Assembly: GCA_943736015.1 (NCBI GenBank)
Contig: OX031071.1
Span: 38,472,619-38,536,618 of the forward strand
Source: Tridacna crocea
Taxonomy: Eukaryota > Mollusca > Bivalvia > Cardiida > Cardiidae
Reading direction: 5' to 3'
DNA length: 64,000 nt
The notes below the pieces were generated by a model. That model did not search any database, was not told the origin of the DNA, and worked only from the letters and a program-made list of their open reading frames with translations. Shown here piece after piece: positions 1,029 to 54,489 of the stretch (position 1 is its first letter; the number at the start of each line of letters is the position of its first letter). The position numbers and the translations under genes were made by a program.

Positions 1029-1237
1029 ATTTTCCTAACGGTATTGAAGACTTGCCAAAACATTTTGTTTGCCCATATTGCGGAAAAACGAGCAGAAACA
1101 AATGGAATCTGGATGTGCATTTACGCACGCATACGGGCAAAAGACCATTTACTTGCTCTCGATGTAAAAAGTCCTTTACTACAAACGGCAATCTCCAACG
1201 TCACATTCAAAATGTTCACCTTTACAATCAGGTTTAG
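1029..1237 (+). CDS. C2H2 zinc-finger terminal exon 1
   Basis: A two-finger DNA-binding C-terminus, probably of a BTB/POZ-type transcription factor acting in the nucleus (inference from array layout). The exon opens after the pyrimidine tract and acceptor TTTCTATCTTTGCAG. Phase is 1, because the first codon is completed by one upstream base (Asp if that base is G). It encodes 69 residues ending in TAG. Finger 1 uses C15, C18, H31 and H35; a TGKRPF linker follows; finger 2 uses C43, C46, H59 and H64 with H-X4-H spacing. Predicted contact residues (-1,2,3,6) are N,W,N,V and T,G,N,R. Finger 1 has Ser where the core Phe usually sits, as do its relatives. It is closest to exon 2. The frame is also open for 52 nt upstream, but that stretch includes the acceptor and is not taken as coding. 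Confidence 0.88.
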
Positions 1238-1809
1238 CCATAAACTGCTGGAACCAACTTAGAATAATTTAATATCAGTTGTTTTCGTGAACATTGGTGA
1301 GTTCTGATTGGCAGAAATTTTGTTTTCATTGATCCATGAAAAATCCGGAACTACTTTTGTTGAGGGTTACTTTTGTAGGTCCTACACACCGCTTTGCTCC
1401 TTTACTTTCATTCTATTGGTTAGTTTTCAGTATTGGGGATCTAAAAACTGCTTCCCTATTATATTCTTGCGCCATACAAATAAAGTGGAAGGGACTTTAG
1501 ATTTTTAACTCTAACATTAGATTTAAAACTATAGAGTTTGAATGCAGTTTGAACTATTTCCATGGGAGTTTGTTGTCTGTAATATTAAATTATAAGCAAT
1601 GAAGAAATGTATGAAACTGCCTTGCGTTTTCACACGGTGAAAGAAATAAATGAAAGAAATAAAATTCTCTTCATTCCTTAATTAATTGCGCAATCTGAAC
1701 TTAGAACTACGCTTTCCACTAATATATTGCATTTTACTGCGAAGATAATTCTGGAATAATTGTGTATGGCAAGGTGTGTGTTCAGATTCTAAAATAATTT
1801 GGTGCAAAT
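1238..1809. other. Exon 1 3' flank, no further gene
   Basis: AT-rich sequence without a recognisable repeat for most of its length. The last part (about 1737-1800) resembles the sequence just after exon 2 (about 4024-4085), both carrying a variant of AATAATTGTG followed by a GATTCTA-type block. This suggests the two exons came from one duplicated segment. Confidence 0.5.
1479..1484 (+). terminator. candidate poly(A) signal AATAAA
   Basis: AATAAA lies about 240 nt after the exon 1 stop codon; further AATAAA motifs follow near 1645 and 1658. It would end an exon 1 transcript if this exon is terminal. Motif only. Confidence 0.4.
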
Positions 1810-2037
1810 TTACCTGTTACCACACAGCAAAATCTTAGACCTATCCAAAGTGAAAGCATTTGGCGAGGACAATTTCAAAGTGGCTCAAATGGTGCAATTT
1901 TGCTTAGATAAGGTAGAAAACTTTGTGGGAAAAGGAGAAAATGCTGGTTATCAGCATTTTTCCTTTTTCCCACAATGTTTTCTAAAGGCTTCACCCTCTG
2001 GGGCATTAAAAGTCGTCATTATGTGGAAAAGGGTTAA
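1810..2037 (-). mobile_element. TH element, CACAGCAAAAT variant
   Basis: Starts with a GTTACCACACAGC-type end and ends GGGTTAA. It belongs to a minor variant with AAAGTGGCTCAAATGG in the body, also seen near 14130, 46280 and 61196. Confidence 0.85.
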
Positions 2038-2108
2038 TAACCATGAATAGACTGTGTTTTGTGAAAAAACCTTGTTGCCAGCTCAAAGGTCAAGGTCACA
2101 GTGTTGGG

Positions 2109-2337
2109 TTAACTCATTACCACACGAGAAAATTTTGGACAGGTCCAAATTGAAAGCATTTGCAGACGACAAAAAAAAAGTGACTGAAAAATAGAAATTT
2201 GTTCAGGAAAGGGTAGAAAACATTGTGGGAAAAGGAGAAAATGCTGGTTACCAGCATTTTCTCCTTTTCCCACAGTGTTTTCTAAAGGCTTCTTTCTCAG
2301 GGGCGTCAAAAGTAGGGATTGAGTGGTAATGGGTTAA
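2109..2337 (-). mobile_element. TH element, subfamily A
   Basis: TTAA at both ends. The palindrome is nearly perfect, with one mismatch pair at the outer stem. Confidence 0.92.
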
Positions 2338-2429
2338 ACATAATGCCAATAAATGCTACAATTACTATAGTAACGACAATTTTTCGGGAAATCTGTGTCA
2401 GTGACACAGTTCTAATTCCCTGATGTTTC

Positions 2430-2659
2430 TTAACCCTTTACGCCATAGATACTCATTTCGTACGTGTTGCTTGTAGGAGCTTTTGGAAAACATTGTTGCA
2501 ATAGGTGAAATTGCTTGTGATGAGCAATTTCACGTTTTGTCACAATGTTTTCTATGCTATCAAAAGGTGTCATATACATATAAGAAACAGTTTTATCCTT
2601 GCTGTTATGTAAGGTCAGTTAGGGATACCATAGAAATGCCTTATGGGGTAAAAGATTAA
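2430..2659 (-). mobile_element. TH element, subfamily C
   Basis: TTAA at both ends. The outer part (CCATAGATACTCATTTC and GCCTTATGGGG) is unlike subfamily A, and the hairpin core is GAAATTGCTTG / tGAGCAATTTC. Confidence 0.9.
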
Positions 2660-2677
2660 CACTAAGGAAATAGCCTA

Positions 2678-2834
2678 TTAACCCATTACCACACAATCCC
2701 TACTTTTGAAAACCCTGAGAAAGGAGCCTTTATAAAACAATGTGGGAAAATGAGCTATTCACATTCATGTTGACATCTACAAAATGCTTTCAATTTGGAC
2801 AAGTCCAAAATTTTGTCATTTGGTAAAGAGTTAA
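2678..2834 (+). mobile_element. TH element, internally deleted
   Basis: Both TTAA ends remain, but the right hairpin arm and flanking bases are missing, leaving about 157 bp. Confidence 0.88.
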
Positions 2835-3043
2835 GTCTTTACCACACAATCCTGACTTATAATTATCCTGAGAAAGATGCCTTTTGAAAACAATGTGGGA
2901 AAAGGAGAAAATGCTGGTAACCACAATGTTTTCTACAATTTTTCACAAAACAAATTTCAAATTTTCAGTCACTTTTATTTTGTTGTCTGCAAATGCTTTC
3001 GATTTGGGCACACCTAAAATTTTGTTGTTTGGTAAAGAGTTAA
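2831..3043 (+). mobile_element. TH element with damaged hairpin
   Basis: Shares TTAA with the preceding copy. The centre runs AATGCTGGTAACCACAATG, so most of the right arm is lost. Confidence 0.88.
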
Positions 3044-3108
3044 TAACCAAGCATGTGCAGACAAAAATTCAAATGTTACTGAAATGGTTACATATTGTTA
3101 TAAACCCT

Positions 3109-3275
3109 TTAACTCGTTACCACATGACAAAATTTTAGGATTGTCCAAATCGAAAGCATTTGCAGACGACAAAATAAAAGTAACTGAAAAATTGAAATTT
3201 ATCTTGTGAAGGGTAGAAAACAAAGGCTTCTTTCTCAGGGGCGTCAAAAGTAGGGATTGTGTGGTAATTGGTTAA
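3109..3275 (-). mobile_element. TH element lacking the hairpin
   Basis: TTAA ends are present, but GGGTAGAAAAC runs straight into AAAGGCTTC: the whole central palindrome has been deleted cleanly. Confidence 0.88.
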
Positions 3276-3557
3276 CACACACAATCCTAAATTTTAACAA
3301 CCTTAATGAAGAAGCCTTTTGAAATCATTTAACTCTTTACCAAACAACAAAATTTTAAGACTTGTCCAAATTGAAAGCACTTGCAGACGACAAAATCAAC
3401 GTAACTCAAGAATTGAAATTTGTTTCCAGCAGGGCAGAAAACATTGTCGGAAATGGAGAAAATGCTGGTTACCAGCATTTTCTCCTTTTCCCACAATGTT
3501 TTCAAAACGCTTGTATCTCAGGGTTTTAAAGACCAGGGATTGTTTGGAAGAGGGTTA
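3276..3557 (-). mobile_element. TH fragment plus full TH element
   Basis: A + strand 5' end fragment (to about 3328) is cut by a full - copy with TTAA at 3329 and 3554. Confidence 0.85.
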
Positions 3558-3720
3558 AGGAAAAGAAGAGAATGCTGGTAACCACCATTTTCTCCTTTTC
3601 CTACAATGTTTTCCACTCTTCTGAAAAATGAAATGATCATTTTGGCTACATTCAATTTTGTTGTCTGCAAAATTCTTTGAAATTTGGATGAATTTAAAAT
3701 TTTGTTGTGTGGTAAAGAGT
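3558..3720 (+). mobile_element. TH element, 5' truncated, abutting exon 2 acceptor
   Basis: Runs from the hairpin to GTGTGGTAAAGAGT. Only 18 nt separate its end from the acceptor AG of exon 2, so the branch site of that exon probably lies inside the repeat (inference). Confidence 0.85.
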
Positions 3721-3738
3721 ATATTTCTGTCTTTGCAG

Positions 3739-3956
3739 ATTTGCCAAAAGGTTTAGAAGACTTGCCAAAACGTACTTTTGTTTGCCCGTATTGCGGGAAA
3801 ATGAACGGAAGCCAATGGAACCTGGATGTGCATTTACGTACACATACGGGAGAAAGACCGTTTACTTGCTCCCGTTGTAAAAGATCCTTTACGACAAATG
3901 GCAGTCTCAGCCGTCACATTAGAGCGGTTCACCATGACTATCAGATTTACCTATGA
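3739..3956 (+). CDS. C2H2 zinc-finger terminal exon 2
   Basis: Alternative two-finger C-terminus, sister of exon 1. Acceptor ATATTTCTGTCTTTGCAG, phase 1, 72 residues, stop TGA. Finger 1 uses C16, C19, H32 and H36; the linker is TGERPF; finger 2 uses C44, C47, H60 and H65 with H-X4-H. Predicted contact residues are S,W,N,V and T,G,S,R, so finger 2 differs from that of exon 1 at helix position 3 while finger 1 shares the W,N,V set. The spacer (LPKGLEDLPK) also matches exon 1, and part of the 3' flank is shared, so local duplication is the likely origin. Function as DNA-binding module is family knowledge; the target is unknown. Confidence 0.88.
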
Positions 3957-4128
3957 CATGCTAAGATTAGTTCTGTAGTCTTATCTTGGATCTACACTGT
4001 ACTCTACTCTATTTCATTTCTGTGCAAAAATAATTGTGAAATAACTGTGTTTGGCCAAGTGTATGGTCTGATTCTAGAATATACTACAATACTAAATATT
4101 GCTAGGTTTCACCGTGTTTCTCACAGTG

Positions 4129-4320
4129 TCCTTTAAAGGTGGCCCGTCAGATCTCGGGATGAAATTCTTACAAGAATACCAAAAAAAATCATCCTTATAC
4201 TCCCAAAACCTTTTATTTTCATTCATTAAAACCCCAGTGGTCGAAAACCATCCAACAACAAGAGAAATTAAAGATTTACTATGCCCAAGATTGACACGAC
4301 GGGAAACACAGTCTATTTTT
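4129..4320 (+). mobile_element. P repeat, left part
   Basis: Starts TTTAAAGGTGGCCC, the left end of a family with matching ends CCCACCTTTAA elsewhere (31102, 33423, 62454). It contains the first half of a conserved short reading frame, here shifted relative to the other copies. It is split by the S repeat inserted after TTTTT. Confidence 0.75.
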
Positions 4321-4880
4321 AGCTCACCTGAGCACAACTTGCTCAAGGGGAGCTTTTAGGATCACCCAGTGTCCGTCGTGCATCGTCAACAATTCTTTAA
4401 ACATCAACTCCTCCTAAACCACAGGGCCAATTTAGACCAAACTTGGCTGGAATGTTCCTTGGGAGGTCCTCTTTAAAAAATGTTCACAGAATTTGATTCT
4501 ATCAAAAACCAAATGGAATTTTCTACGAAATTCTTTAAAATTCTTCTCTGAAACCACTGGCCAGATTTTAAAATTATTTCACAGAGATGTTCCTTGTGTG
4601 GCCCTTTACAAAAATTTTACAAGAAATTTTGATCCATCAAGAAACATGGCTCTGCTGAATGGTGGCTACTTGCTCTATAGGGACATGAAGAAATTCTTGA
4701 AAATTATTCTTTTCTTAAACTGCTGGTCAGATTTTGCAATGACTTTTACAGGTGACCTTTTGAAAATTGCTTCACAAAGTAATGGTTTTGTTTCCAGTGT
4801 TTCAATACCTCAACAAAAAATTGGCGATGGTCCTCTCAAAAATTCAGGTGAGCGATCCAGGGCCATCTTAGCCTCTTGTT
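4321..4880 (+). mobile_element. S repeat inserted in P repeat
   Basis: Starts AGCTCACCTGAGC and ends GGGCCATCTTAGCCTCTTGTT. The uninterrupted P copies read TATTTTTACATGA here, which fixes both edges. One internal unit of about 166 bp is present where other copies have several. No transposase is seen. Confidence 0.75.
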
Positions 4881-9682: not shown

Positions 9683-10580
9683 ACTGAAACTGCCCTTCCA
9701 AATTTGATGAAACTTTACAGAAATGATCCTGTCATGGTCCTCTTCAGAATTTGTTCAAAGAATTTGATTCCTTCAAAAATTCTGGTTGCCATGGCATCAG
9801 AACTGAAACAAAAATTACATTTTTAAAAATCTTCTTCTCTGAAACCACAAGGCCCAGGGTTTATGAATTTGGCATGTAGCTTTATCAACAAGTTTAACAA
9901 TTTCTTCATATTGTAGGTCTGAGGTCAAAATTGGCTCCATTCCAAACATGCGCTTCCTATATAGTCACTTCAATGACTCAATATTAATTAAGGGAAATAA
10001 GTCTATAAATGATAAAGTTTGTTACTATTTACATCCCTTGATACAAACTGCAGTGATACATGATTGGTGCTAGATATTTTAAGTTTTTTCTATAGAAAAT
10101 GTTCTCTTTTCAGGGAGAGTATTTCATTTCGATGCTAATAGTTATGCTCACATGAGTGGAATATTAACTTTTTACCATACAACAAAATTTCAGGTTTGTC
10201 CAAATCGAAAGCCTTTGCGGACGACAAAATAAAAGTGACTGAAAATTGTAAACTTGTTTTGTAAAGGGTAGAAAACATTATGGGCAAAGGAGAAAATGCT
10301 GGTTACCATCATTTTCACCTTTTCTCACAATGTTTTCTAAAGACTTCAATTTCAAGGTCATTCAAAGTCAGGATTGTGTGGTATAGAGTTTGATTTAAAG
10401 TAAGGTTGAGTTTTTTTCCCCCCAAGAAATTCACCTTTCATGCCAAAGAATAAACCTGCTTGTATTGCTTGACAGTGTTCATTGTTTTTGAAAGCCCTCT
10501 TCTTCAGGGTCATGAACACTTTAATTTGTGTGGTAAAGGGTTAAAAAGCCAGTGGAGCAATACAGGGCCATCATGGCCCT
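9683..10580 (+). mobile_element. R repeat, 5' truncated, with nested TH
   Basis: Matches the copies at 29676, 37593 and 42091 (CCAAATTTGATGAAACTT, GGCATGTAGCTTTATC, AATAAACCTGCTTGTATTGC). It ends in the short stem GGGCCATCATGGCCC then TCTTGT. It holds a TH insertion at 10164-10392. Confidence 0.8.
10164..10392 (-). mobile_element. TH element nested in R repeat
   Basis: Inserted at ATATTAA of the R repeat. The uninterrupted R copy near 30515 reads GGAATATTAAATTG at this point. Confidence 0.88.
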
Positions 10581-10608
10581 CTTGTACTTATTTAATAGGA
10601 TAACAGTT

Positions 10609-10832
10609 GAACCTTTACCATACAATCCCTGGTTTTCATGACCCTGGTAAAGAAGGCTTTTGATAACATTGAGGGAAAAGGAGAAAATGCTGGTAACCAG
10701 CATTTTCTCCCTTTCTCACAATGTTTCCTACCTTATTAAAGACCTAAAGCTCATTTATACCAATTTTGAATTGGTCTGTTAATGCTTTAAATTTTGGGAG
10801 AGTCTAAAATTTGTGATTTGGGAAAGGAATAG
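10609..10832 (+). mobile_element. TH element, subfamily B, degraded 3' half
   Basis: Hairpin intact (CTGGTAACCAGC). The 3' half, with TTTGGGAAAGG, is diverged and its TTAA is lost. Confidence 0.8.
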
Positions 10833-10860
10833 ATAAGGACAAATCCTTTATGTTTGTAAT

Positions 10861-11090
10861 TATACCCCCCAAAACTCTGTTTGGGGGGGGGGGGGGGGGG
10901 GGGGTATATAGGAGTCAGCTTGTTTTATCTATGTTCACACAGCTGATCTATTTTACACACTTTTCAAGTTTTAACACCATTTATTTTTCTCTGTAACTAT
11001 TATACCCCAATCATACCAAACTGGTTCTTAGCCTTTTTCTGAAAACTGTGTGTCAAACAAATTTAAACCGTGTTTGGGTGGAGTGAACAT
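10861..11090. repeat. Interspersed repeat with G tract
   Basis: Begins ATTATACCCCCCAAAACTC, then a run of over 20 G and TATATAGGAGTCAGC. It recurs in the second duplication copy at about 15207 with a shorter G run. Type unknown. Confidence 0.6.
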
Positions 11091-11116
11091 ATCAGCAATC
11101 ATTTACGATCTGTTCA

Positions 11117-11347
11117 TGAACCCTTTCCCAAACAATTCCTGGTTTACGATGCTGGAAAAAAAGGCTTTTTAAAACATTGTAAGAAAAGGAGAAAATGCTG
11201 ACAACCAGCATTTCCTCCTTTTCCAACAATGGTTTCCACTCTTTCATTGACAAAAGTTATCATTTGTATTACACTTAATTTGATGTCTGCAAACGGTTTC
11301 AATTTGGTCTTTCTTGTTCACAGTTTTGTCATTTGGGAAAGGATTAA
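11117..11347 (+). mobile_element. TH element, subfamily B, diverged
   Basis: AACCCTTTCCCAAACAATTC start, TTTGGGAAAGGATTAA end. The hairpin core is CTGACAACCAGC. Confidence 0.85.
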
Positions 11348-11926
11348 TGGATGGGTTAAGATGGGAAGGGTGACCAAGAACTTGAAACTGCTCAAAATTT
11401 TACTATCCAAGTACATAATCCATCTAGTCTTATAATCAGATGGAGTGACAACAAGCTGAAAATGTGGATGGACAGAGTTACTAGAAACAAAACTGTCGTA
11501 CTTTAGTCCTAATATTGATGGTGTGCAGTCAGGTATCACATGCGCGGATCCAGATATCTTTCTCAGGGGGGATCCCACCGAAAACACACTTGTCGTATTA
11601 TATGATACTTTGGTTTCCGGATTTCAGTGGATGTAAGCTGATTACAAGAAAAGTAAACGTTTCCAGTTCTAACCATGAGGAGGTCTTCACATTTAGAACC
11701 TTTTTTTTTTAAATTTATAACTGTATTTTACATAAATGCTGTGCAATATCAAACCAGTTCCATTTCACGAATCCGATAACCACATTTTTGCCAAAATTCC
11801 AGGGCAGTTGGCAGTGCATTAATTTTGCAGACCGTAATTACATGTCTGAGCCTGACCGCGGCTTCTTCATGATTTTTTTGACCGGAGTAAGACTTTCTAA
11901 GGACAGGTTTGGTGAGACAAGGGGCT
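11348..11926. other. No gene recognised, duplicated sequence
   Basis: About 580 bp of low-repeat sequence also present at 15686-16263. Open stretches occur on both strands, but none shows a splice site with a recognisable domain. Confidence 0.4.
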
Positions 11927-12155
11927 TTAACCCATTACCACACAATCCTTACTTTTGATGTCCCTGAGAAAGAAGCCTTTAGAAAACACTGTGGGAAAAG
12001 GAGAAAATGCTGGTAACCAGCATTTTCTCCTTTTCCCACAGTGTTTTCTACCCTTCCCAGAACAAATTCCAATTTTTCAGTCACGTTTATTTTGTCGTCT
12101 GCAAATGCTTTTAATTTGGGCCAGTCTAAATTTTTTTCGTGTGGTAAACAGTTAA
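11927..12155 (+). mobile_element. TH element, subfamily A
   Basis: TTAA at both ends, perfect central palindrome with the ACACTGTGGG / CCCACAGTGT stem pair. Confidence 0.93.
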
Positions 12156-12201
12156 GCATTATTAGCACAAAGTTATATCTTCTGCCCTGACCTCTATCCT
12201 T

Positions 12202-12819
12202 TTTATATCCCCCCCCCCCCGCCCCCCCACAACGAAGTGGAGGGGGGTATGCTGGAATCGCCATGGCTGTCCTTCCATCTGTCCGTCCATCTGTCTGTGG
12301 ACACAATTTTATCCAAAGTTTTTTTCCTACAGTTTTTCAAGTACTCCACTGAAATTAACACATAATGTTTGAGTACATATGAAATTGTGCATGTGCAATT
12401 TTCATGATCTTGCTGCAATTGGTTGCCGAATTATCTCCCTTTAAGCTTGTAAGGTTTCCTGCATTGTTGTTGTCAAGAGCATTACTCCTATAGTTTTGCA
12501 TTTACTGAACCCAATTCTATACATAATGTTTCTGTATATGACTGCAGACGACAAAATAAAGGTGACTGAAAAATTGAAATTTGTTCTGGGAAGGGCAGAA
12601 AGCACTGTGGGAAAAGGAGAAAATGCTGATGTTTTCAAAAGCCTTCTTTCATAGGGGTGTCAAAAGTAGGGATTGTGTGGTAATGGGTTAAGGAATTATT
12701 TCCCCTTTTACTTTTTCCAACTCTTACTTTTGTACTAAACCATTCTTTATTCTGTAACAAAGACCTGTTTTTGTGACAAGGAGCTGGTGGGGGGTATAAT
12801 CACGTTTAGTGATGGCTCT
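12202..12819. mobile_element. G repeat with nested TH remnant
   Basis: Starts TATATCCCCCCC with CACAACGAAGTGGAGGGGG and GGTATGCTGGAATCGCCATG; ends GGGGTATAATCACGTTTAG. The same family occurs at 36944 and 61672. A TH element is inserted at 12541-12691. Confidence 0.75.
12541..12691 (-). mobile_element. TH element, truncated, nested
   Basis: Starts within GCAGACGACAAAATAAAGG and ends GGTAATGGGTTAA. The right hairpin arm is missing. Confidence 0.85.
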
Positions 12820-12899
12820 AGTTCCGATTATGTTAGAATGGAGTAAGACGCTCTGTTGTAATAGCAGTTATAGGATGTTATATTTTTCTATATTTGCAG

Positions 12900-13111
12900 A
12901 GATTCAAAAAAAGAGCAAGCCCATGCCTACTTTTGTTTGCCCGTTTTGTGGAAGAGTCAGCTTTAGCAGATGGAAACTTGATGTGCATATTCGCTCACAT
13001 ACAGGCGAAAAACCGTTTGCTTGCCCCCAGTGCGAGACTTCCTTTACGACAAAAGGCAGTCTCATTCGTCACATTAAAACGATTCATGGAAACACGGGTT
13101 TAAACTCATGA
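12900..13111 (+). CDS. C2H2 zinc-finger terminal exon 3
   Basis: Alternative two-finger C-terminus. Acceptor ATTTTTCTATATTTGCAG, phase 1 (Glu if the donor base is G), 70 residues, stop TGA. Finger 1 uses C14, C17, H30 and H34; linker TGEKPF; finger 2 uses C42, C45, H58 and H63 (H-X4-H). Predicted contact residues are S,W,K,V and T,G,S,R, so it belongs to the exon 1-2 group (WxLDVH in finger 1, SFTTxGSL in finger 2). The protein is identical to exon 4. A strong foldback begins about 25 nt after the stop, so a transcript ending here would carry a stable 3' UTR hairpin. Confidence 0.9.
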
Positions 13112-13135
13112 AGCACTGAGATATGTTTAATAGAG

Positions 13136-13290
13136 GATAATCAACTGGTTGTTTTTGATATGAAAAATATCTCGCGAGGATGCGTTGTTAGGCGTTGAAA
13201 AAACGAGTACGCAGCACGAGTTTTTTTAACGCCTTACGACGCGTCCGAGTGAAATATTTTTCATATCAAAAACAACCAGTTGATTATTCT
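13136..13290. repeat. Foldback in the exon 3 3' flank
   Basis: Arms of roughly 75 bp: ATAATCAACTGGTTGTTTTT on the left is mirrored by AAAAACAACCAGTTGATTAT on the right. The inner stem has several mismatches. Confidence 0.9.
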
Positions 13291-13484
13291 ATTTATTATA
13301 TATACCTTATTAACATCATTATTTGTAATTTTGCGTTTGAAAGTCGAAAAAAATGTAGTCGAAAAAAAAAAAAAACGTAGTTCCCAAATTACGGCAGGAA
13401 GTGAAAGTGAAAGTTGATAACGTCACTAGTGATAATATCAAAATTTATTACACTGGGAAATTCCAGGATTTCACTGCTAGGTAT

Positions 13485-13490
13485 AATAAA
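13485..13490 (+). terminator. candidate poly(A) signal AATAAA
   Basis: In GGTATAATAAACTCC, about 375 nt after the exon 3 stop. The same site in the second copy is at 17821, just before the TH insertion. Motif only. Confidence 0.35.
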
Positions 13491-13547
13491 CTCCTTTAAC
13501 ACATGCCATATTGTAGCACAATTCAAATTGAAACTGTTTACGTGGAC

Positions 13548-13775
13548 TTATCCTTTTACCAAACAATCCCTGGTTTTTATGACCCCGAGATAAAAGCCTT
13601 TTGAAAACATTGTGGGAAAAGGAGAAAATGCTGGTAACCAGCATTTTCTCCTTTCCTCACAATGTTTTCTACCCTGCTGGAAACAAATTTCAATTTTTGA
13701 GTAACGTTTATCTTGTCCTCCGCAAATGCTTTGAATTTGGACCAGTCTAAAACTTTGTCATGTGGTAAAGAGTTA
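13548..13775 (+). mobile_element. TH element
   Basis: CCTTTTACCAAACAATCCC start, GTGGTAAAGAG-TTAA end. Identical in position in both duplication copies (second at 18109). Confidence 0.88.
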
Positions 13776-13906
13776 ACTCAGTTTTTGTGACAGTGTAGAT
13801 CAAGATCAGACTGCTTCTTTATTATATATTCTGGTGTAAACAATCATGAGCTAACATTGTTTTGCATGTTTTTCCTTATTGAAAGGTCTGTCCAACTAGT
13901 TCTAGG

Positions 13907-14131
13907 CATGTACCTTTTGCAAAAAATTGCTGACTTCCTGAACAACCTCAGGAAAGAAGCCTTTTGAAAACATTGTGAGAAAAGGAGAAACTGCTGGTAA
14001 CCAGCATTTTCTCCTTTTTCCACTATGTTTTCTATCCTATCAAAGAAAAATTGCGCCATTGGAGCCACATTGAAATTTTTTTCAGGTAATACTTCTATTT
14101 TGGACAAGTCAAAAATTTTGTCGTCTGTTAT
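13907..14131 (+). mobile_element. TH element, diverged
   Basis: Ends decayed; recognised by the hairpin (CTGCTGGTAACCAGCATTTT) and by TGGACAAGTCAAAAATTTTG. Confidence 0.7.
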
Positions 14132-14357
14132 TCCTTGACCACACGGCAAAATTTTTTAGACCTATCCAAATTGAAACCATTTGCAGACAACTATTCAAAG
14201 TGGCTCAAATGGTGCAATATTTTTTTGTATAGGGTAGAAAACTTCATGGTAAAAGGAAAAAAAGCTGGTTACCAGCAATTTCTCCTTTTCCCACAATGTT
14301 TTCCAAAGACCTCTTCCTCAGGGACGTCAGAAGTCGTCATTGTATTGTAAAGGGTTA
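14130..14357 (-). mobile_element. TH element, CACGGCAAAAT variant
   Basis: Body AAAGTGGCTCAAATGGTGC as at 1810. Right end GTAAAGGG-TTAA. The hairpin stem has decayed bases. Confidence 0.8.
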
Positions 14358-14918
14358 AGGGCTTTCTTTCTTTATTACACAATCTCAAGTTTTAACAAGC
14401 TTGAAAAAATATATTCTTGCAAACATTCTTGGAAAAGTAAAAGAAATGTTGGTGAACATTTTCTCCTTTTCCCACAATATCTTCTACCCTTTCAAATACA
14501 ATTTCAAAGAAATTATTCACCCATAATTTGTCGTCTCCAAATTGCCTTGAATTGGTATGTTTCTAAAAGTGTGTTTTCTATTATCAAGTAAACAATCCCG
14601 ACTTTTAACAACCCTGAGAAGGAAGCCTTTTTAAAAAATTGTGGGAAAAGGAAAAAATGCTGGTAATCGGCATTTTCTCCTTTTCCCACAATGTTTTCTA
14701 CTCTTCACAAAACAAATTTCAAATTTTTAGTCACTTTTATTTTGTCGTCTGCAAATGCTTTCAATTTGGACAAGCCTAAAATATTGTCATTTTGTAATGA
14801 CTTAAACCAGTACCATACAATCCCAAGTTTTAAGGACCAAAAGGAAGAGACCACTCACAAACATTGTAGGAAAAAGGTGAAAATGCAGCTAATAAGCAGT
14901 TTTTCATTCCTTCTTTTT
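14358..14918 (+). mobile_element. Three TH copies in a row
   Basis: A diverged copy (about 14370-14590), a good copy (14590-14805, ending ACTTAA) and the 5' half of a third that is cut by the duplication junction near 14918. Confidence 0.75.
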
Positions 14919-16263
14919 CAAAGCCCTCTTGTACTTATTTAATAGGATAACAGTTGAACCTTTACCATACAATCCCTGGTTTTCATGACCCTGGTAAAGA
15001 AGGCTTTTGATAACATTGAGGGAAAAGGAGAAAATGCTGGTAACCAGCATTTTCTCCTTTTCTCACAATGTTTCCTACCTTATTAAAGACCTAAAGCTCA
15101 TTTATACCAATTTTGAATTGGTCTGTTAATGCTTTAAATTTTGGGAGAGTCTAAAATTTGTGATTTGGGAAAGGAATAGATAAGGACAAATCCTCTATGT
15201 TTGTAATTATACCCCCCAAAACTCTGTTGGGGGGGGGGGGGGGTATATAGGAGTCAGCTTGTTTTATCTATGTTCACACAGCTGATCTATTTTACACACT
15301 TTTCAAGTTTTAACAGCATTTATTTTTCTCTGTAACTATTATACCCCAATCATACCAAACTGGTTCTTAGCCTTTTTCTGAAAACTGTGTGTCAAACAAA
15401 TTTAAACTGTTTGGGTGGAGTGAACATAATCAGCGACTATTTACGATCTGTTCATGAACCCTTTCCCAAACAATTCCTGGTTTACGATGCTGGAAAAAAA
15501 GGCTTTTTAAAACATTGTAAGAAAAGGAGAAAATGCTGATAACCAGCATTTCCTCCTTTTCCAACAATGGTTTCCACTCTTTCATTGACAAAAGTTATCA
15601 TTTGTGTTACACTTAATTTGATGTCTGCAAACGGTTTCAATTTGGTCTTTCTTGTTCACAATTTTGTCATTTGGGAAAGGATTAATGGATGGGTTAAGAT
15701 GGGAAGGGTGACCAAGAACTTGAAACTGCTCAAAATTTTACTATCCAAGTACATATCCATCTAGTCTTATAATCAGATGGAGTGACAACAAGCTGAAAAT
15801 GTGGATGGACAGAGTTACTAGAAACAAAACTGTCATACTTTAGTCCTAATATTGATGGTGTGCAGTCAGGTATCACATGCGCGGATCCAGATATCTTTCT
15901 CAGGGGGGATCCCACCGAAAACACACTTGTCGTATTATATGATACTTTGGTTTCCGGATTTCAGTGGATGTAAGCTGATTACAAGAAAAGTAAACGTTTC
16001 CAGTTCTAACCATGAGGAGGTCTCCACATTTAGAACCTTTTTTTTTTAAATTTATAACTGTATTTTACATAAATGCTGTGCAATATCAAACCAGTACCAT
16101 TTCACGAATCCGATAACCACATTTTTGCCAAAATTCCAGGGCAGTTGGCAGTGCATTAATTTTGCAGACCGTAATTACATGTCTGAGCCTGACCGCGGCT
16201 TCTTCATGATTTTGTTGACGGGAGTAAGACTTTCTAAGGACAGGTTTGGTGAGACAAGGGGCT

Positions 16264-16491
16264 TTAACCCATTACCACACAATCCCTACTTTTGATGTCC
16301 CTGAGAAAGAAGCCTTTAGAAAACACTGTGGGAAAAGGAGAAAATGCTGGTAACCAGCATTTTCTCCTTTTCCCACAGTGTTTTCTACCCTTCCCAGAAC
16401 AAATTCCAATTTTTCAGTCACGTTTATTTTGTCGTCTGCAAATGCTTTTAATTTGGGCCAGTCTAAATTTTTTTCGTGTGGTAAACAGTTA
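16264..16491 (+). mobile_element. TH element, subfamily A (copy 2 of 11927)
   Basis: Same insertion as at 11927, inherited through the duplication; hairpin perfect. Confidence 0.92.
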
Positions 16492-16537
16492 AGCATTATT
16501 AGCACAAAGTTATATCTTCTGCCCTGACCTCTATCCT

Positions 16538-17155
16538 TTTTATATCCCCCCCCCCCGCCCCCCCACAACGAAGTGGAGGGGGGTATGCTGGAATCGCCAT
16601 GGCTGTCCTTCCATCTGTCCGTCCATCTGTCTGTGGACACAATTTTATCCAAAGTTTTTTTCCTACAGTTTTTCAAGTACTCCACTGAAATTAACACATA
16701 ATGTTTGAGTACATATGAAATTGTGCATGTGCAATTTTCATGATCTTGCTGCAATTGGTTGCCGAATTATCTCCCTTTAAGCTTGTAAGGTTTCCTGCAT
16801 TGTTGTTGTCAAGAGCATTACTCCTATAGTTTTGCATTTACTGAACCCAATTCTATACATAATGTTTCTGTATATGACTGCAGACGACAAAATAAAGGTG
16901 ACTGAAAAATTGAAATTTGTTCTGGGAAGGGCAGAAAGCACTGTGGGAAAAGGAGAAAATGCTGATGTTTTCAAAAGCCTTCTTTCATAGGGGTGTCAAA
17001 AGTAGGGATTGTGTGGTAATGGGTTAAGGAATTATTTCCCCTTTTACTTTTTCCAACTCTTACTTTTGTACTAAACCATTCTTTATTCTGTAACAAAGAC
17101 CTGTTTTTGTGACAAGGAGCTGGTGGGGGGTATAATCACGTTTAGTGATGGCTCT
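16538..17155. mobile_element. G repeat with nested TH (copy 2 of 12202)
   Basis: Same nested structure as in the first copy, with a shorter C run at its start. Confidence 0.75.
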
Positions 17156-17235
17156 AGTTCCGATTATGTTAGAATGGAGTAAGACGCTCTGTTGTAATAG
17201 CAGTTATAGGATGTTATATTTTTCTATATTTGCAG

Positions 17236-17447
17236 AGATTCAAAAAAAGAGCAAGCCCATGCCTACTTTTGTTTGCCCGTTTTGTGGAAGAGTCAGCTTT
17301 AGCAGATGGAAACTTGATGTGCATATTCGCTCACATACAGGCGAAAAACCGTTTGCTTGCCCCCAGTGCGAGACTTCCTTTACGACAAAAGGCAGTCTCA
17401 TTCGTCACATTAAAACGATTCATGGAAACACGGGTTTAAACTCATGA
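17236..17447 (+). CDS. C2H2 zinc-finger terminal exon 4 (twin of exon 3)
   Basis: Same acceptor, phase 1, 70 residues and stop as exon 3. The predicted protein is identical and no base difference was noticed in the exon. It therefore adds no new DNA-binding specificity: it is either a very recent extra exon or a duplicate made in assembly from two haplotypes. The surrounding 4.5 kb supports a duplication, and the TH insertion downstream (17832) distinguishes this copy. Both exons would be equally usable from a shared donor, since acceptor and phase are the same. Confidence 0.85.
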
Positions 17448-17471
17448 AGCACTGAGATATGTTTAATAGAG

Positions 17472-17626
17472 GATAATCAACTGGTTGTTTTTGATATGAA
17501 AAATATCTCGCGAGGATGCGTTGTTAGGCGTTGAAAAAACGAGTACGCAGCACGAGTTTTTTTAACGCCTTACGACGCGTCCGAGTGAAATATTTTTCAT
17601 ATCAAAAACAACCAGTTGATTATTCT
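17472..17626. repeat. Foldback in the exon 4 3' flank
   Basis: Second copy of the foldback at 13136, same spacing from the stop codon. Confidence 0.9.
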
Positions 17627-17831
17627 ATTTATTATATATACCTTATTAACATCATTATTTGTAATTTTGCGTTTGAAAGTCGAAAAAAATGTAGTCGAAA
17701 AAAAAAAAAAACGTAGTTCCCAAATTACGGCAGGAAGTGAAAGTGAAAGTTGATAACGTCACTAGTGATAATATCAAAATTTATTACACTGGGAAATTCC
17801 AGGATTTCACTGCTAGGTATAATAAACTCCT

Positions 17832-18060
17832 TTAACCCATTACCACACAATCCCTACTTTTGACGCCCCTGAGAAAGAAGCCTTTTGAAAACACTGTGGG
17901 AAAAGGAGAAAATGCTGGTAACCAGCATTTTCTCCTTTTCCCACAGTGTTTTCTACCCTTTCCAGAACAAATTTTTATTTTTCAGTCACCTTTATTTTGT
18001 CATCTGCAAATGCTTTCAATTTGGACCAGTCCAAAATTCTCTCGTGTGGTAATGAGTTAA
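17832..18060 (+). mobile_element. TH element absent from duplication copy 1
   Basis: Copy 1 reads CTCCTTTAACACATGCC at 13491-13507. Here the same site is CTCCT-TTAA, 221 bp of TH, TTAA-CACATGCC. The empty and filled sites differ by exactly one element plus one TTAA, which proves the target duplication and a post-duplication insertion. Hairpin perfect; TIR CCCATTACCACAC / CTCATTACCACAC. Confidence 0.97.
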
Positions 18061-18108
18061 CACATGCCATATTGTAGCACAATTCAAATTGAAACTGTTT
18101 ACGTGGAC

Positions 18109-18336
18109 TTATCCTTTTACCAAACAATCCCTGGTTTTTATGACCCCGAGATAAAAGCCTTTTGAAAACATTGTGGGAAAAGGAGAAAATGCTGGTAACC
18201 AGCATTTTCTCCTTTCCTCACAATGTTTTCTACCCTGCTGGAAACAAATTTCAATTTTTGAGTAACGTTTATTTTGTCCTCCGCAAATGCTTTGAATTTG
18301 GACCAGTCTAAAACTTTGTCATGTGGTAAAGAGTTA
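18109..18336 (+). mobile_element. TH element (copy 2 of 13548)
   Basis: Same insertion as at 13548, right end AAAGAG-TTAA. Confidence 0.88.
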
Positions 18337-19366
18337 ACTCAGTTTTTGTGACAGTGTAGATCAAGATCAGACTGCTTCTTTATTATATATTCTGGTGTAA
18401 ACAATCATGAGCTAACATTGTTTTGCATGTTTTTCCTTATTGAAAGGTCTGTCCAACTAGTTCTAGGCATGTACCTTTTGCAAAAAATTGCTGACTTCCT
18501 GAACAACCTCAGGAAAGAAGCCTTTTGAAAACATTGTGAGAAAAGGAGAAACTGCTGGTAACCAGCATTTTCTCCTTTTTCCACTATGTTTTCTATCCTA
18601 TCAAAGAAAAATTGCGCCATTGGAGCCACATTGAAATTTTTTTCAGGTAATACTTCTATTTTGGACAAGTCAAAAATTTTGTCGTCTGTTATTCCTTGAC
18701 CACACGGCAAAATTTTTTAGACCTATCCAAATTGAAACCATTTGCAGACAACTATTCAAAGTGGCTCAAATGGTGCAATATTTTTTTGTATAGGGTAGAA
18801 AACTTCATGGTAAAAGGAAAAAAAGCTGGTTACCAGCAATTTCTCCTTTTCCCACAATGTTTTCCAAAGACCTCTTCCTCAGGGACGTCAGAAGTCGTCA
18901 TTGTATTGTAAAGGGTTAAGGGCTTTCTTTCTTTATTACACAATCTCAAGTTTTAACAAGCTTGAAAAAATATATTCTTGCAAACATTCTTGGAAAAGTA
19001 AAAGAAATGTTGGTGAACATTTTCTCCTTTTCCCACAATATCTTCTACCCTTTCAAATACAATTTCAAAGAAATTATTCACCCATAATTTGTCGTCTCCA
19101 AATTGCCTTGAATTGGTATGTTTCTAAAAGTGTGTTTTCTATTATCAAGTAAACAATCCCGACTTTTAACAACCCTGAGAAGGAAGCCTTTTTAAAAAAT
19201 TGTGGGAAAAGGAAAAAATGCTGGTAATCGGCATTTTCTCCTTTTCCCACAATGTTTTCTACTTTTCACAAAACAAATTTTCAAATTTTTAGTCACTTTT
19301 ATTTTGTCGTCTGCAAATGCTTTCAATTTGGACAAGCCTAAAATATTGTCATTTGGTAATGACTTA

Positions 19367-19475
19367 AACCAGTACCATACAATCCCAAGTTTTAAGGACC
19401 AAAAGGAAGAGACCACTCACAAACATTGTAGGAAAAAGGTGAAAATGCAGCTAATAAGCATTTTTTCATTCCTTC

Positions 19476-19518
<43 letters not shown>

Positions 19519-19622
19519 ACTCCCCCAAACAAAAACATACGTTTGGGTTTGGATCGCATACAAATTGTTGTCTGCGAATTCATTGGACAAGTCTAAAGTT
19601 TGGTTGCCTAGCAAAGAGTTGA
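19367..19622 (+). mobile_element. TH element split by a poly-C tract
   Basis: The 5' part (ACCATACAATCCCAAG) and the 3' part (TTGTTGTCTGCGAATTC, AAAGAGTTGAC) are separated by about 42 C residues where the right hairpin arm should be. Confidence 0.8.
19477..19518. repeat. Poly-C tract
   Basis: An uninterrupted C run at the end of duplication copy 2. It is the place where the two copies stop matching. Confidence 0.95.
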
Positions 19623-24507: not shown

Positions 24508-24731
24508 AGGTTCCGTACATGATAGTAGAAGAACGTCAGTTGGGTGATTTGAAACAAAAACTATTTGTGTGTTCCACTTGCGGACAAGGCTTTTCCGCTA
24601 AAAACGCACTGACAGTTCACATGCGAATACACACGGGGGAAAAACCTCACATGTGTAACATCTGTGGAAAAAGTTTTCGGCAGGCTGGAACCTTTAAGAG
24701 ACATTTGATTACACATTTGAAATCGACGTGA
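24508..24731 (+). CDS. C2H2 zinc-finger terminal exon 5
   Basis: Alternative two-finger C-terminus. Acceptor TTTATTTCTAATTACAG, phase 1 (Glu if the donor base is G), 74 residues, the longest of the array, stop TGA. A 19-residue charged spacer precedes finger 1 (C22, C25, H38, H42); linker TGEKPH; finger 2 uses C50, C53, H66 and H70. Both fingers keep the canonical Phe and have H-X3-H. Predicted contact residues are A,N,A,V and Q,G,T,R. It does not group closely with the other exons, so it is probably an old member. An ATTAAA lies about 45 nt after the stop. Confidence 0.9.
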
Positions 24732-29162: not shown

Positions 29163-29392
29163 TTTAACCCTTTACCCCTCAATGACAACTTTTAACGACC
29201 CTGGGAAAGAAGCCTTTTGTAAACATTGTTGGAAAAGGAGAAAATGCTGGAAACGAGCATTTTCTCCTTTTCCCACAATGTTTTCACTGCTTCCCAAAAC
29301 AGATTTCAGTATTTTAGTCACATTTACTTTGTCGTCTGCAAATGCTTTCAATTTGGAACAGTCCAAAGTTTTGTTATCTAGTAAAGAGTTAA
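29163..29392 (+). mobile_element. TH element directly upstream of exon 6
   Basis: TTAA at both ends. It ends 30 nt before the first base of exon 6, so only a pyrimidine tract separates it from the acceptor. Confidence 0.9.
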
Positions 29393-29422
29393 AAGGCATT
29401 ATATTTCTCTGTTTCATTCCAG

Positions 29423-40215: not shown

Positions 40216-40280
40216 CTAATCTCTTTCTGAGGCTTGAAGATAGTCATTGCAACAGGATTCTTTCCTCTCACAGTGCTGAT

Positions 40281-40367
40281 CATATCAATGGGTAAGTGCA
40301 AGGCTATTGTAAGTGCATATACAATGTATATGCACTTACAATAGTCTTGCACTTACCCATCAATATG
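40281..40367. repeat. Foldback, same family as 53595
   Basis: TGTAAGTGCATATACA is mirrored by TGTATATGCACTTACA, with outer arms ATCAATGGGTAAGTGCAAG / CTTGCACTTACCCATCAAT. Confidence 0.92.
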
Positions 40368-40458
40368 TGGGAGCAGCCAGTGGTTTGGGAAGATTATTTT
40401 ACGGAGTGCCGGTGAAAAGAAACTCTATATAACTGAAATAATGTTGAAAAAATGTCAT

Positions 40459-45091: not shown

Positions 45092-45282
45092 ATATGTTAT
45101 GGTACGCAAGATATGTTTGTACGATATGCGGAAAGGTACAGCCTTCTAGGAAAGACTTACAACGCCATATTCGCGTACATACTGGTGAACAGCCATACAA
45201 GTGTCCGGAATGTGGTCGCAGTTTTAGCATTAAATCTAGCATGAAACGACATGTTCGAGTGATGCATTTAAAAGACTTGTAG
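45092..45282 (+). CDS. C2H2 zinc-finger terminal exon 9
   Basis: Alternative two-finger C-terminus. Acceptor CTGTCTTTTTCCCTTTACAG, phase 1 (Asp if the donor base is G), 63 residues, the shortest of the array, stop TAG. Finger 1 uses C10, C13, H26 and H30; linker TGEQPY; finger 2 uses C38, C41, H54 and H59 (H-X4-H). Predicted contact residues are S,K,D,R and I,S,S,R. Finger 1 has Gln where the core aromatic residue usually is. It is most similar to exon 8 in protein, yet its downstream flank matches that of exon 7, so exons 7, 8 and 9 form one duplication cluster. Confidence 0.9.
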
Positions 45283-50540: not shown

Positions 50541-50573
50541 AATCATTCCAACCCTTACAACACAATGCCAGCT

Positions 50574-50802: not shown

Positions 50803-50897
50803 ATGACCCCCAGGAAGAATGCTTTTGGAAACATTGTTTGAAAAGGAGAAAGCCTGGTAAGCAGCATTTTCTATCTCACAAGGACTATTTTCAACAT
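50803..50897 (+). mobile_element. TH fragment
   Basis: ATGCTTTTGGAAACATTG and a broken hairpin. Confidence 0.7.
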
Positions 50898-51126: not shown

Positions 51127-51654
51127 CCCTAAACCACTATTAAAGACCCTGAAAACTAGGCCTTTTGAAAACATTGTGGGAAAAGGAGAAAATGCTGGTA
51201 ACCAGCATTTTCTCCTTTTTCCACAATGTTTTCAACTGTTCCCAAAACAATTTTCAATTTTTTATCTACAGTTATTTTGTTCGTGTGCAAATGCTTTCAA
51301 TTTTGACAAGTCTAAAATTTTGTCGTTGGGTAAAGAGTTTACTCATTACCACAAAATCCCTACTTTTGAAGACCCTGAGAAAGAAGCATTTAGAAAACAT
51401 TGTGGGAAAAGAAGAAACTGTTTGTAACCAGTATTTTCTCCTTTTCCCACAATGTTTTCTACCCTAGCTTCCCAAAATGATTTTCAATTTTTGAGCCACA
51501 TTTATTTTGTTCGTCTGCATGTAAATGCTTTCAGTTTGGACAAGTCTTCAATTTTGTTGTTTGGTAAAGAGTTAAGGTACCTCTAATTTTTGTTGTCCAC
51601 AAATGCTTTCAAATTTGGACCTGTCTAAAATTGTGTTATTTGGCAAAGAGTTAA
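51127..51654 (+). mobile_element. Run of three TH copies
   Basis: 51127-51340 (left end decayed), 51338-51575 (ends AAAGAG-TTAA) and a 3' end fragment 51580-51654, all in the same orientation. Confidence 0.82.
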
Positions 51655-51879
51655 CCCTTTCCCAAACAAGCCCTGGTTTTTACTTGTTTGCAGTAAAAGT
51701 CTTTTGAAAAAACTGTGGGGAAAGGAGAAATTGCTTGTTACGAGCAATTTCTCCTTTTCCCACAGTTTTTTTTCCATCCTTTTGAGAACTTTCTGTTATT
51801 TTCTCCAAATCTAAAATTGTCGTCTGCAAACACTTTTGGTTTGGAAGAGTCCAAAATTTGTTGTTTGGGAAAGGGTTAA
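51651..51879 (+). mobile_element. TH element, B-type ends with C-like hairpin core
   Basis: TTAA at both ends. Core GAAATTGCTTG / CGAGCAATTTC within an otherwise B-type frame, a mosaic copy. Confidence 0.9.
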
Positions 51880-52014
51880 AACCTAGCTTACTGCAAATTT
51901 TTAAAAATTCAACTTTGGACAACAAGCATAAACAAGGTTTTTTTTCCCCCCTGGAATAAGTTCAGGCACCTCTAATTTTTATCGTCGACAAACACTTTCA
52001 AATATGGACGTGTC

Positions 52015-52242
52015 TTAACCGTTTCCCAAACAATCCCTGGTTTTTACGGGTCTGGAATAGAAGCCTTTTGAAAACATGGTGGGAAAAGGAGAAAATGCTG
52101 GTAACCAGCATTTTCTCCTTTTCCCACAATGTTTTCTACCCTATCATAAAGAAAAATAATCTTTTAGCAACTGTTAATTTGTCATCTGCAAAATGCTTTG
52201 AATTTAGTCTGGTCCAAAATTTGCGGTTTGGGAAAGGGTTAA
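52015..52242 (+). mobile_element. TH element, subfamily B
   Basis: TTAA-CCGTTTCCCAAACAATC to TTTGGGAAAGGG-TTAA. Flanked on both sides by copies of CAACTTyGGACAACAAGC, a host repeat about 385 bp apart. Confidence 0.92.
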
Positions 52243-52365
52243 ACTGTGTTATTTGGTAAGGAGTTTAAACCTACCTTACGGAAATTTTGTACAAATTCAA
52301 CTTCGGACAACAAGCGTTAACAAGATTTCCCCTCTTCCCCCCCCCCTCCCCCCCCCCTTGAATAG

Positions 52366-52680
52366 TTAAGCCTTTACCACACAATCTTGACTTTTAACAA
52401 CCCTTAAAACGAAAGCCTTCTAAAACACTGTGGGAAAAGGAGAAACTGCTGGTTGCCAGCATTTTCTCCGCTTACCACACAATTTTCTACTCTTTTCAAA
52501 ACAAGTTTCAATGTTTGAGTCATGGTTACTTTGTTGTCTACAAATGCTGTCATTTTGGAAAAAACTACAATTTTGCTGTTTGGTAAAGAGTTAACCCTTT
52601 ACCAAACAATCCCTGGTTTTTATGGCCCTTAGATAGAAGCCTTTGAAAACATTATGGAAAAAGGAGGAAATGCTGGTAAA
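52366..52680 (+). mobile_element. TH element plus TH 5' half
   Basis: Full copy 52366-52594 sharing its last TTAA with a second copy that breaks off after GGTAAACATGC. Confidence 0.85.
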
Positions 52681-52705
52681 CATGCTGCTTATTTTTTGAG
52701 TTATT

Positions 52706-52945
52706 GCCCTTTGTTGTTTTTCATACTTGAATTTTGTCCGGACCATATCTCCAAAATTATACTAGCTAGGATTATGAAATTTCATGGGTGGACAGATCTC
52801 ATCAAGCAAGCAAGAGTTATGATTCCTGTGCACTGCACTCCCCCTTGATAAGATCTATCCACCCATGAAATTTCATAACCCTAGCTAGTATAGTTTGGGA
52901 GATATTCACCTGACAAAATTCAAATATGAAAAATGACAAAAGCCC
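52706..52945. repeat. Long foldback, about 95 bp arms
   Basis: ATGAAATTTCATGGGTGGA and CTAGCTAGG on the left are mirrored by TCCACCCATGAAATTTCAT and CTAGCTAG on the right; loop about 45 bp. Confidence 0.93.
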
Positions 52946-53072
52946 AGGGTCAGTAGGCAAATTTGTATCATTGAGCCAATGAAAGGCCATGAGTGAGAGA
53001 AGCTATTTTCAATAAAAAAATAAGTGTCTCAACGATTGATTATATATCTGAGTGCCCCAAAAAAACTCATTT

Positions 53073-53396
53073 GCTTGAGAAAAAAATGTGTTTAACTTGG
53101 TTTATTTCCTTCGCTTTTGCACAAAATAAGATACATGGTTATCAAAATTCAGTCTTGATCTTATAGTGGTATTGTCTACGACAAATACCACAAAAACCAG
53201 GGATTGTTTGGTAAAAGGTAAGCCAATCAAATTTGCTTGAGAAAAAATGAGTTTAACTGGGTTTATTTCCTTCGGCTTTGCACAAAATAAGATACATGGT
53301 TATCAAAATTCAATCTTGATCTCATAATGGTATTGTCTACGACAAATACCACAAAAACCGGGGATTGTTTGGTAAAAGGTAAGCCAATAAAATTCT
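53073..53396. repeat. Tandem duplication, about 163 bp units
   Basis: GCTTGAGAAAAAA..TGTTTGGTAAAAGGTAAGCCAAT occurs twice in a row with few differences. Each unit ends in a TH-like AGGGATTGTTTGGTAAAAGG word. Confidence 0.88.
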
Positions 53397-53594
53397 TGGA
53401 CACCTGCCTTTTCTATCACCTGACTGATTTTGTCTTGTCCAATCAACTTTTGTGCTAAAATTTTTTAGTTTCAGAAATTTAGAGCAGATTTATCCCTGAT
53501 TTAATTATGATGAATTTGCAAGGCTCCAACCTATTGTAGATATTGAAAATAAAAAAAATGATATGCCAATCCATGTACCAGGCACCTGCCTTGC

Positions 53595-53680
53595 ATATCG
53601 ATCGGTGAGTGCAACACAATTCTAAGTGCCTGTACAATGTACAGGCACTTAGAATAGTGTTGCACTCACCGATCGATATG
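53595..53680. repeat. Foldback, same family as 40281
   Basis: AAGTGCCTGTACA is mirrored by TGTACAGGCACTT, outer arms ATCGATCGGTGAGTGCAAC / GTTGCACTCACCGATCGAT. Confidence 0.93.
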
Positions 53681-53764
53681 ACATGACTGATTTTGAATTA
53701 ACCAATCACATTTTGTTTCATAATTTTTCAGGGTCATCAATTTCAAATGAAGTTACAGTCTAGT

Positions 53765-53995
53765 TTAACTCTTCACCACACAATTCCTACCTTTAATGAC
53801 CCTGAGAGAGAAGCCTTCTGAAAACATTGTGGGAAAGGGAGAAAATGCTGGTAATCAGCATTTTCTCCTTTTCCCACAATGTTTTCTTCCCTTCCCAAAA
53901 CAAATATCAAATTTCCAGTCACTTTTATCATGTCGTCTGCAAATACTTTCCGTTTCGACCAGTCTAAAATTTTGTCGATAAAGAAAAAGAGTTAA
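53765..53995 (+). mobile_element. TH element in the acceptor repeat
   Basis: TTAA at both ends. The next repeat unit reads CTAGTCTAACTTGCAAAG where this one has CTAGT-TTAA..TTAA-CCTGCAAAG, giving an empty-site comparison. Confidence 0.93.
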
Positions 53996-54295
53996 CCTGC
54001 AAAGTTCTATGCCATTGGAGATATTGAAAAATAATCACAGGCCAATCCAAGTACAGGACACCTTACTTGCATATCACATGACCAATTTTGAATTAACCAA
54101 TCACATTCTGTTTTGTAATTTTTCAGGGTTATAAATTTCAAATGGAGTTACACCCTAGTCTAACTTGCAAAGTTCTATGCCTTTTGGAGATACTGAAAAA
54201 TAATGACAAGCCAATCCGAATACAGCACACCTGCCTTGTATATCACATGACCAATTTTGAATTAACCAATCACATTTTGTTCTGTACTTTTTCAG

Positions 54296-54489
54296 GGTCA
54301 GATACTACCTTGCCAAAGATACACCCATGTTTGGTGTGCAGGAAGCTCTTCCCATCGAAGGCAGCACTTCAAGATCACTTCCGTATCCATACTGGGGAAA
54401 AACCGTTTGAATGTGAAATCTGTAAGAAACGATTTTCTCTCAAGGGCAATAAGAAGAAACACATGCGAGCTATCCATAACATGCAGTGA
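54296..54489 (+). CDS. C2H2 zinc-finger terminal exon 10
   Basis: Alternative two-finger C-terminus. Acceptor TTTTGTTCTGTACTTTTTCAG, phase 1 (Gly if the donor base is G), 64 residues, stop TGA. Finger 1 uses C12, C15, H28 and H32; linker TGEKPF; finger 2 uses C40, C43, H56 and H61 (H-X4-H). Predicted contact residues are S,A,A,D and L,G,N,K. Finger 2 has Lys where the helix Leu is normally found (GNKKKH), which may weaken its fold. The 168 bp upstream, including an acceptor-like site, is repeated at least twice more, but the earlier copies run into stop codons soon after their CAG. It groups with none of the other exons closely. Confidence 0.9.

Follow-up and report, generated by a model that had tools for sequence, protein, structure and literature searches.

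The 64,000 nucleotides of Tridacna crocea DNA analysed here (contig OX031071.1, positions 38,472,619 to 38,536,618; hereafter the window) carry ten exons on the plus strand, each encoding two C2H2 zinc fingers and ending in its own stop codon. The best reading of this sequence is that these are alternative terminal exons served by one common 5′ half, an arrangement that we consider probable. An earlier note on this DNA had described the ten exons, and their coordinates, lengths and strand were reproduced here. Its figure of 63 to 74 codons corresponds to 62 to 73 complete codons plus one split codon per exon, and its ten exons hold nine distinct finger pairs, because E3 and E4 are the same. 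The exons are as follows.

1029–1237, plus strand: E1, two-finger terminal exon; phase 1; 68 complete codons; stop TAG; no in-frame ATG ahead of the fingers
3739–3956, plus strand: E2, two-finger terminal exon; phase 1; 71 codons; stop TGA; nearest relative E1 (71% at the amino acid level); no in-frame ATG ahead of the fingers
12900–13111, plus strand: E3, two-finger terminal exon; phase 1; 69 codons; in copy A of a tandem duplication
17236–17447, plus strand: E4, two-finger terminal exon; phase 1; identical to E3; in copy B of the tandem duplication
24508–24731, plus strand: E5, two-finger terminal exon; phase 1; 73 codons
29423–29622, plus strand: E6, two-finger terminal exon; phase 1; 65 codons
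34135–34328, plus strand: E7, two-finger terminal exon; phase 1; 63 codons
38823–39019, plus strand: E8, two-finger terminal exon; phase 1; 64 codons; nearest relative E9
45092–45282, plus strand: E9, two-finger terminal exon; phase 1; 62 codons
54296–54489, plus strand: E10, two-finger terminal exon; phase 1; 63 codons; repeated acceptor region

A six-frame scan of the whole window found 20 strict C2H2 motifs on the plus strand and none on the minus strand. Chance was rejected as their source, given that 100 order-1 Markov controls of the window's length yielded a mean of 0.08 motifs and never more than one. Ten finger pairs with a short linker were found, every one of them on the plus strand. 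A hidden Markov model (HMM) of the ten exons, run against six-frame open reading frames (ORFs) of at least 15 amino acids, recovers these same ten, each with E no higher than 1.1e-27, and reveals no eleventh or dead copy at E <0.1, the next match (E = 0.14) lying on the minus strand. In all nine distinct exons Pfam PF00096 recognises a pair of C2H2 stretches, with 38.7–55.7 bits against a cut-off of 25.2. The encoded protein ends 1–7 residues beyond finger 2 in every case, and the exons are separated by gaps of 2.5–9.0 kb, such that the whole array exceeds 53 kb.

The way in which these exons begin was assessed with a generic, phase-blind acceptor score, its frequencies taken from general knowledge, which was applied to all AGs from the upstream in-frame stop to finger 1. 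The top-ranked AG coincided with the acceptor named in the earlier note in all ten exons, among 6–19 candidate AGs each, and the ten chosen acceptors score at the 97.8–99.7 percentile when every AG of the window is considered. Two bases precede the first full codon at each of these independently scored sites, which bears out the claim of a shared phase 1. The second-best AG of E10 lies at 54126 in a different frame; here a 169-bp unit upstream of the exon, the acceptor included, is present in 1.8 tandem copies (53993–54298). A donor ending in T would place a stop codon at the start of E3, E4, E5 and E6, which rules out T at the end of a common donor. One ending in G would give D or E as the first residue in eight of the ten exons. 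The earlier suggestion of G is thus plausible, and G remains the likeliest last base of a common donor if there is one.

The exons bear the marks of functional coding sequence, since the ratios of non-synonymous to synonymous change (dN/dS) are below 1 and the likeness of E1 to E2 is centred on the exon plus its acceptor. These two exons share 80.6% DNA identity over 1005–1249 and 3715–3962, a block that begins 24 nt before the acceptor and ends 12 and 6 nt past the respective stops. Outside it, the likeness of their flanks is confined to repeats and a single weak downstream stretch (1682–1802 against 3967–4087). Ratios could be computed for 8 of the 45 pairs, or 6 of 36 when only distinct exons are counted, and range from 0.18 to 0.57, with values of 0.38 for E1/E2 and 0.22 for E8/E9; two of the eight have dS >1.5. 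For E3/E4 both rates are zero, and dS is saturated in the remaining 36 pairs. All ten frames are open with their zinc ligands intact, and the 14 invariant alignment columns include all eight of these ligands and the linker T-G-x-x-P. Every one of the 20 fingers is C2H2 with TG-x-x-P linkers, none being C2HC. Zinc fingers usually contact bases through helix positions −1, 2, 3 and 6. At these positions finger 1 of the nine distinct exons reads NWNV, SWNV, SWKV, ANAV, CSKR, STDR, SIDR, SKDR and SAAD, and finger 2 retains R or K at position 6. Given the differing finger 1 residues, different exons should read different DNA. Taken together, the contact positions show no clear excess of variability over the remainder of the finger.

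How the exons relate to one another is constrained by their ends and by the DNA between them. Serial joining into one mRNA was rejected, as every exon ends in a stop and nine of the ten lack an internal GTRAG donor, only E10 containing one. The description of the exons as mutually exclusive, made in the earlier note, follows from these stops and holds only if the exons form one gene. Between the last stop and finger 1 there is no in-frame ATG in E1 and E2, meaning that an upstream exon is needed; intronless two-finger genes were therefore rejected for these two, whilst the other eight exons do have such an ATG. In line with the earlier claim that no other coding exon was found between the ten, neither a domain nor a recurrent 5′ exon was detected there. 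The Pfam scan covered 38 of the 63 low-repeat non-finger ORFs of at least 70 amino acids plus two others, and none of these 40 reached a curated cut-off; four sub-threshold matches (E 0.0086–0.05) look like chance. Comparison by tblastx of the repeat-masked inter-exon stretches gave 410 rows, all of which were examined and none of which revealed a recurrent 5′ exon beside the finger exons. DNA-level repeats or the E3/E4 duplication account for 396 of them; the other 14 comprise three rows from the E1/E2 downstream stretch, eight from a single pair (40260–40386 against 53575–53701) that is alike in many frames on both strands, and three short rows. With no recurrent 5′ exon or domain found between the exons, one common 5′ half outside the window is favoured.

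From what is visible in the sequence, namely the exons, their phase, their stops, their constraint and the failure to find competing exons, we infer a common half, splicing, polyadenylation and DNA binding that would fit together in the following way. The window would be the 3′ half of one transcription-factor gene, with the common 5′ half to its left ending in a donor after the first codon base, which could be any but T. Choice of acceptor, together with the chosen exon's stop and presumably its own polyadenylation site, would place one of the ten terminal exons in each mRNA. Each choice would give the protein a C-terminal C2H2 finger pair, one of nine different pairs available, such that it retains one partner or dimerisation half and exchanges its DNA-binding half.

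Several points weigh against this proposal. The window contains neither the common exon nor its donor, the left part of the locus lying outside it. Equal phase is to be expected from paralogy, would come free to separate genes of common descent and is not by itself proof of one donor. Small or fast-evolving 5′ exons could have escaped detection, as the Pfam scan reached 38 of the 63 ORFs (the other 25 comprising three on the plus and 22 on the minus strand) and none of the shorter ones. The first poly(A) signal occurs 45–1515 nt past the stop. Its median distance is 293 nt, compared with 474.5 for 5000 random positions, and such signals do not discriminate and lend no real support.

The earlier note compared the locus with Drosophila lola. 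This locus is described as a common BTB half joined by cis- and trans-splicing to unique C-terminal finger exons (PMC1947980, PMC11426971), giving 20 isoforms of which 17 have different C2H2 fingers (PMC11426971); the fingers are C2H2 or C2HC, and three isoforms have none (PMC1947980). The comparison stands for the anatomy of alternative terminal exons, that is, several same-phase C-terminal zinc-finger exons with their own stops, a likeness of layout in which one-gene status is here our proposal. It fails for lola's mixed finger types: the window's ten exons uniformly encode two C2H2 fingers with a TG-x-x-P linker and lack the C2H2/C2HC mixture, although this is a weak criterion given that lola isoforms vary. 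The window also differs from lola in that no BTB was found in it, a lola BTB query giving no match better than E = 0.83, and in being probably non-arthropod. Broad-Complex, fruitless and tramtrack likewise place alternative C2H2 finger pairs on a common core. Broad-Complex is the closest in layout, but these loci offer about two to five alternatives compared with ten in the window and carry an arthropod TTK-type BTB. Another fly locus, mod(mdg4), resembles the window in having a common half and many alternative C-terminal exons, with at least 30 isoforms made by trans-splicing (PMC11426971); it differs in that it is trans-spliced and most of its isoforms are FLYWCH rather than C2H2. Within bivalves, Crassostrea BTBGC1 and BTBGC2 are duplicated BTB loci, but they arose through whole-gene duplication with similar promoters as opposed to an exon array (PMC12111275). 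Taken with these differences, our locus may work like lola or Broad, but filing it as a member of either is not supported.

What the common half might be follows from the same comparison. It may not be BTB at all, and instead consist of another dimerisation domain or of more fingers, a variant of the one-gene proposal that we regard as possible though on the unlikely side. It is in line with the failure to find BTB in the window, with fingers that are all C2H2 with TG-x-x-P linkers and never C2HC, and with a survey that searched Mollusca and found TTK-type BTBs in no group outside Arthropoda, a few plant sequences being ascribed to lateral transfer (PMC11426971). Set against this, the best-known loci so arranged, lola and also Broad, fruitless and tramtrack, carry BTB. 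Published TTK-type BTBs are restricted to arthropods, so that likeness to lola in a mollusc would be convergent. It is a tentative suggestion, to which we give somewhat less than even weight, that a bivalve independently evolved a lola- or Broad-like combinatorial transcription-factor locus, in which one common half serves nine or more distinct two-finger terminal exons; such a locus would stand apart from the TTK-BTB lineage of arthropods and would still be growing by tandem duplication, as at E3/E4. No description of a mollusc array of this type was found in the open-access literature, some of the search terms being strict.

A different gene model would make the array a tandem cluster of small separate genes, with private short 5′ exons and promoters and a phase inherited from one ancestor. 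The exons are indeed paralogous, with closer ones more alike, the 2.5–9.0 kb gaps are spacious enough for private 5′ exons, and oyster genomes contain clusters of duplicated BTB genes, as one study reports (PMC12111275). This model must be set against the lack of any recurrent coding segment beside the exons among the tblastx rows and the lack of a domain above cut-off in the 40 other ORFs. It would also confine a private 5′ exon of E4 to about 2.3 kb of duplicated DNA, or locate it beyond, and a two-finger protein without any further domain would be unusual. We consider separate genes unlikely.

The array appears to have expanded through local tandem duplication. The farther apart two of the nine distinct exons lie in the array, the less alike they are (Mantel r 0.54, p 0.0017), and a FastTree tree groups E1–E4 (support 0.96) with E5 adjoining, places E6–E10 on the opposite side and makes E8 and E9 sisters. 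One duplication is laid out in full in the window:

10576–19476, unstranded: direct tandem duplication; copy A 10576–14914, copy B 14923–19476; holds E3 and E4

The copies lie 8 bases apart and agree at 4308 of 4327 aligned bases (99.56%). A 229-bp element with TTAA at its borders is present in copy B only, copy A having the empty TTAA site. A run of about 50 C at 19477–19526 lies at the right edge of copy B, and is either a true poly-C tract or an assembly scar. Such close identity and spacing might be seen if two alleles had been written consecutively, and the run of C could mark the scar, such that E3/E4 would be an unresolved haplotype written twice by the assembler; alternatively, the array might be partly dead. 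The element in copy B alone is compatible with duplication and with a second allele alike, whereas ten open frames, intact zinc ligands and dN/dS below 1 speak against a dead array, and we find this pair of explanations improbable. Trans-splicing of separately transcribed exons or exon groups onto a common half, a further variant of the one-gene proposal, is on record for fly lola and mod(mdg4) (PMC11426971, PMC1947980) and might suit an array longer than 53 kb, but no sequence feature hints at such joining and we judge it very improbable here.

Relatives were also sought in other sequence collections. In viral contigs one of 31 candidate stretches was related (L001), and this is one multi-finger ORF and no array of exons; genome contigs yielded 39 related loci. 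Across the 43 loci surveyed, 16 have a run of at least two strict fingers, mostly in ORFs of three or more fingers, and 27 have no strict finger run, 18 of these coming from one Kistimonas metagenome-assembled genome. None of the matches listed for these loci, at most eight per locus, looks like a row of two-finger exons, although splice sites and host contamination were not assessed. Solved structures gave 139 distinct sequences with the E8 query and 95 with E3. The best matches are C2H2 proteins with many fingers, ZNF568 and CTCF for example, and several ZBTB proteins are included; these matches are generic and decide nothing. A search of viral contigs with TTTTAGCTCACCTGAGC found three loci, none aligning with the window; two of these have ORFs that resemble those of phages on visual inspection. 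Neither phages searched with the 42.8–43.4 kb stretch nor plasmids searched with E3 gave a match.

One of the related loci, L005 (with L006 and L007 alike), comes from Candidatus Endonucleobacter ex Gigantidas childressi (JASXSU010000001.1) and consists of intronless genes arranged in tandem. This mussel-associated bacterium is an intranuclear parasite. Nine of the ten ORFs of at least 280 amino acids in L005 share a near-constant N-terminal half, the tenth being without its first part, and by eye all end in C2H2 fingers that vary between copies (one was confirmed with Pfam). This array resembles the logic of the window, though it is achieved via whole-gene duplication, and one might guess that its finger proteins are nuclear effectors.

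The 229-bp element (reference copy 17832–18060) has TTAA ends and a 67-bp near-perfect central palindrome, and its target site suggests a piggyBac-like miniature inverted-repeat transposable element. Its blast hits merge into 124 loci, which together span about 21 kb of the window, with 55 copies near full length in both orientations; TTAA lies near both ends in 37 of these 55, and the core motif occurs 68 times. Its ends lie 18–33 nt upstream of the acceptors of three of the ten exons, E1, E2 and E6 (990–1028, 3715–3738 and 29390–29422). Given that 7.7% of 27,810 comparable positions have an element end within 40 nt, this is a mild excess that may be chance. The repeat core had no match in viral contigs, and the repeat's letters none in paper texts.

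Around 42.9–43.2 kb there are two copies of a 92-nt stretch, spaced 164 nt apart and 90% identical. BIV160 is described as an old satellite of bivalves (PMC6934838), and both 92-nt copies match its reverse primer bivR (sequence from PMC5139131), with 2 and 3 of the 21 bases mismatched. Among 200 Markov sequences, none reaches the better score and one reaches the other; the forward primer bivF is not above chance. This BIV160-like repeat lends modest support to the bivalve origin proposed in the earlier note. Assignment of the 166-bp arrays at 27.5 and 48 kb to BIV160 is unsupported, as neither primer matched them above chance. No tRNA and no Rfam family was found in the window, and a promoter scan, covering 200 bases with a bacterial consensus, has no bearing on a eukaryotic array.

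If the reading of these exons as the alternative ends of one gene is true in a mollusc, then a constant partner domain combined with exchangeable DNA-binding tails has evolved on more than one occasion, and many regulators would be obtainable from a single locus. Such a locus would also be a second setting for studying how one terminal acceptor among many is picked across 50 kb.

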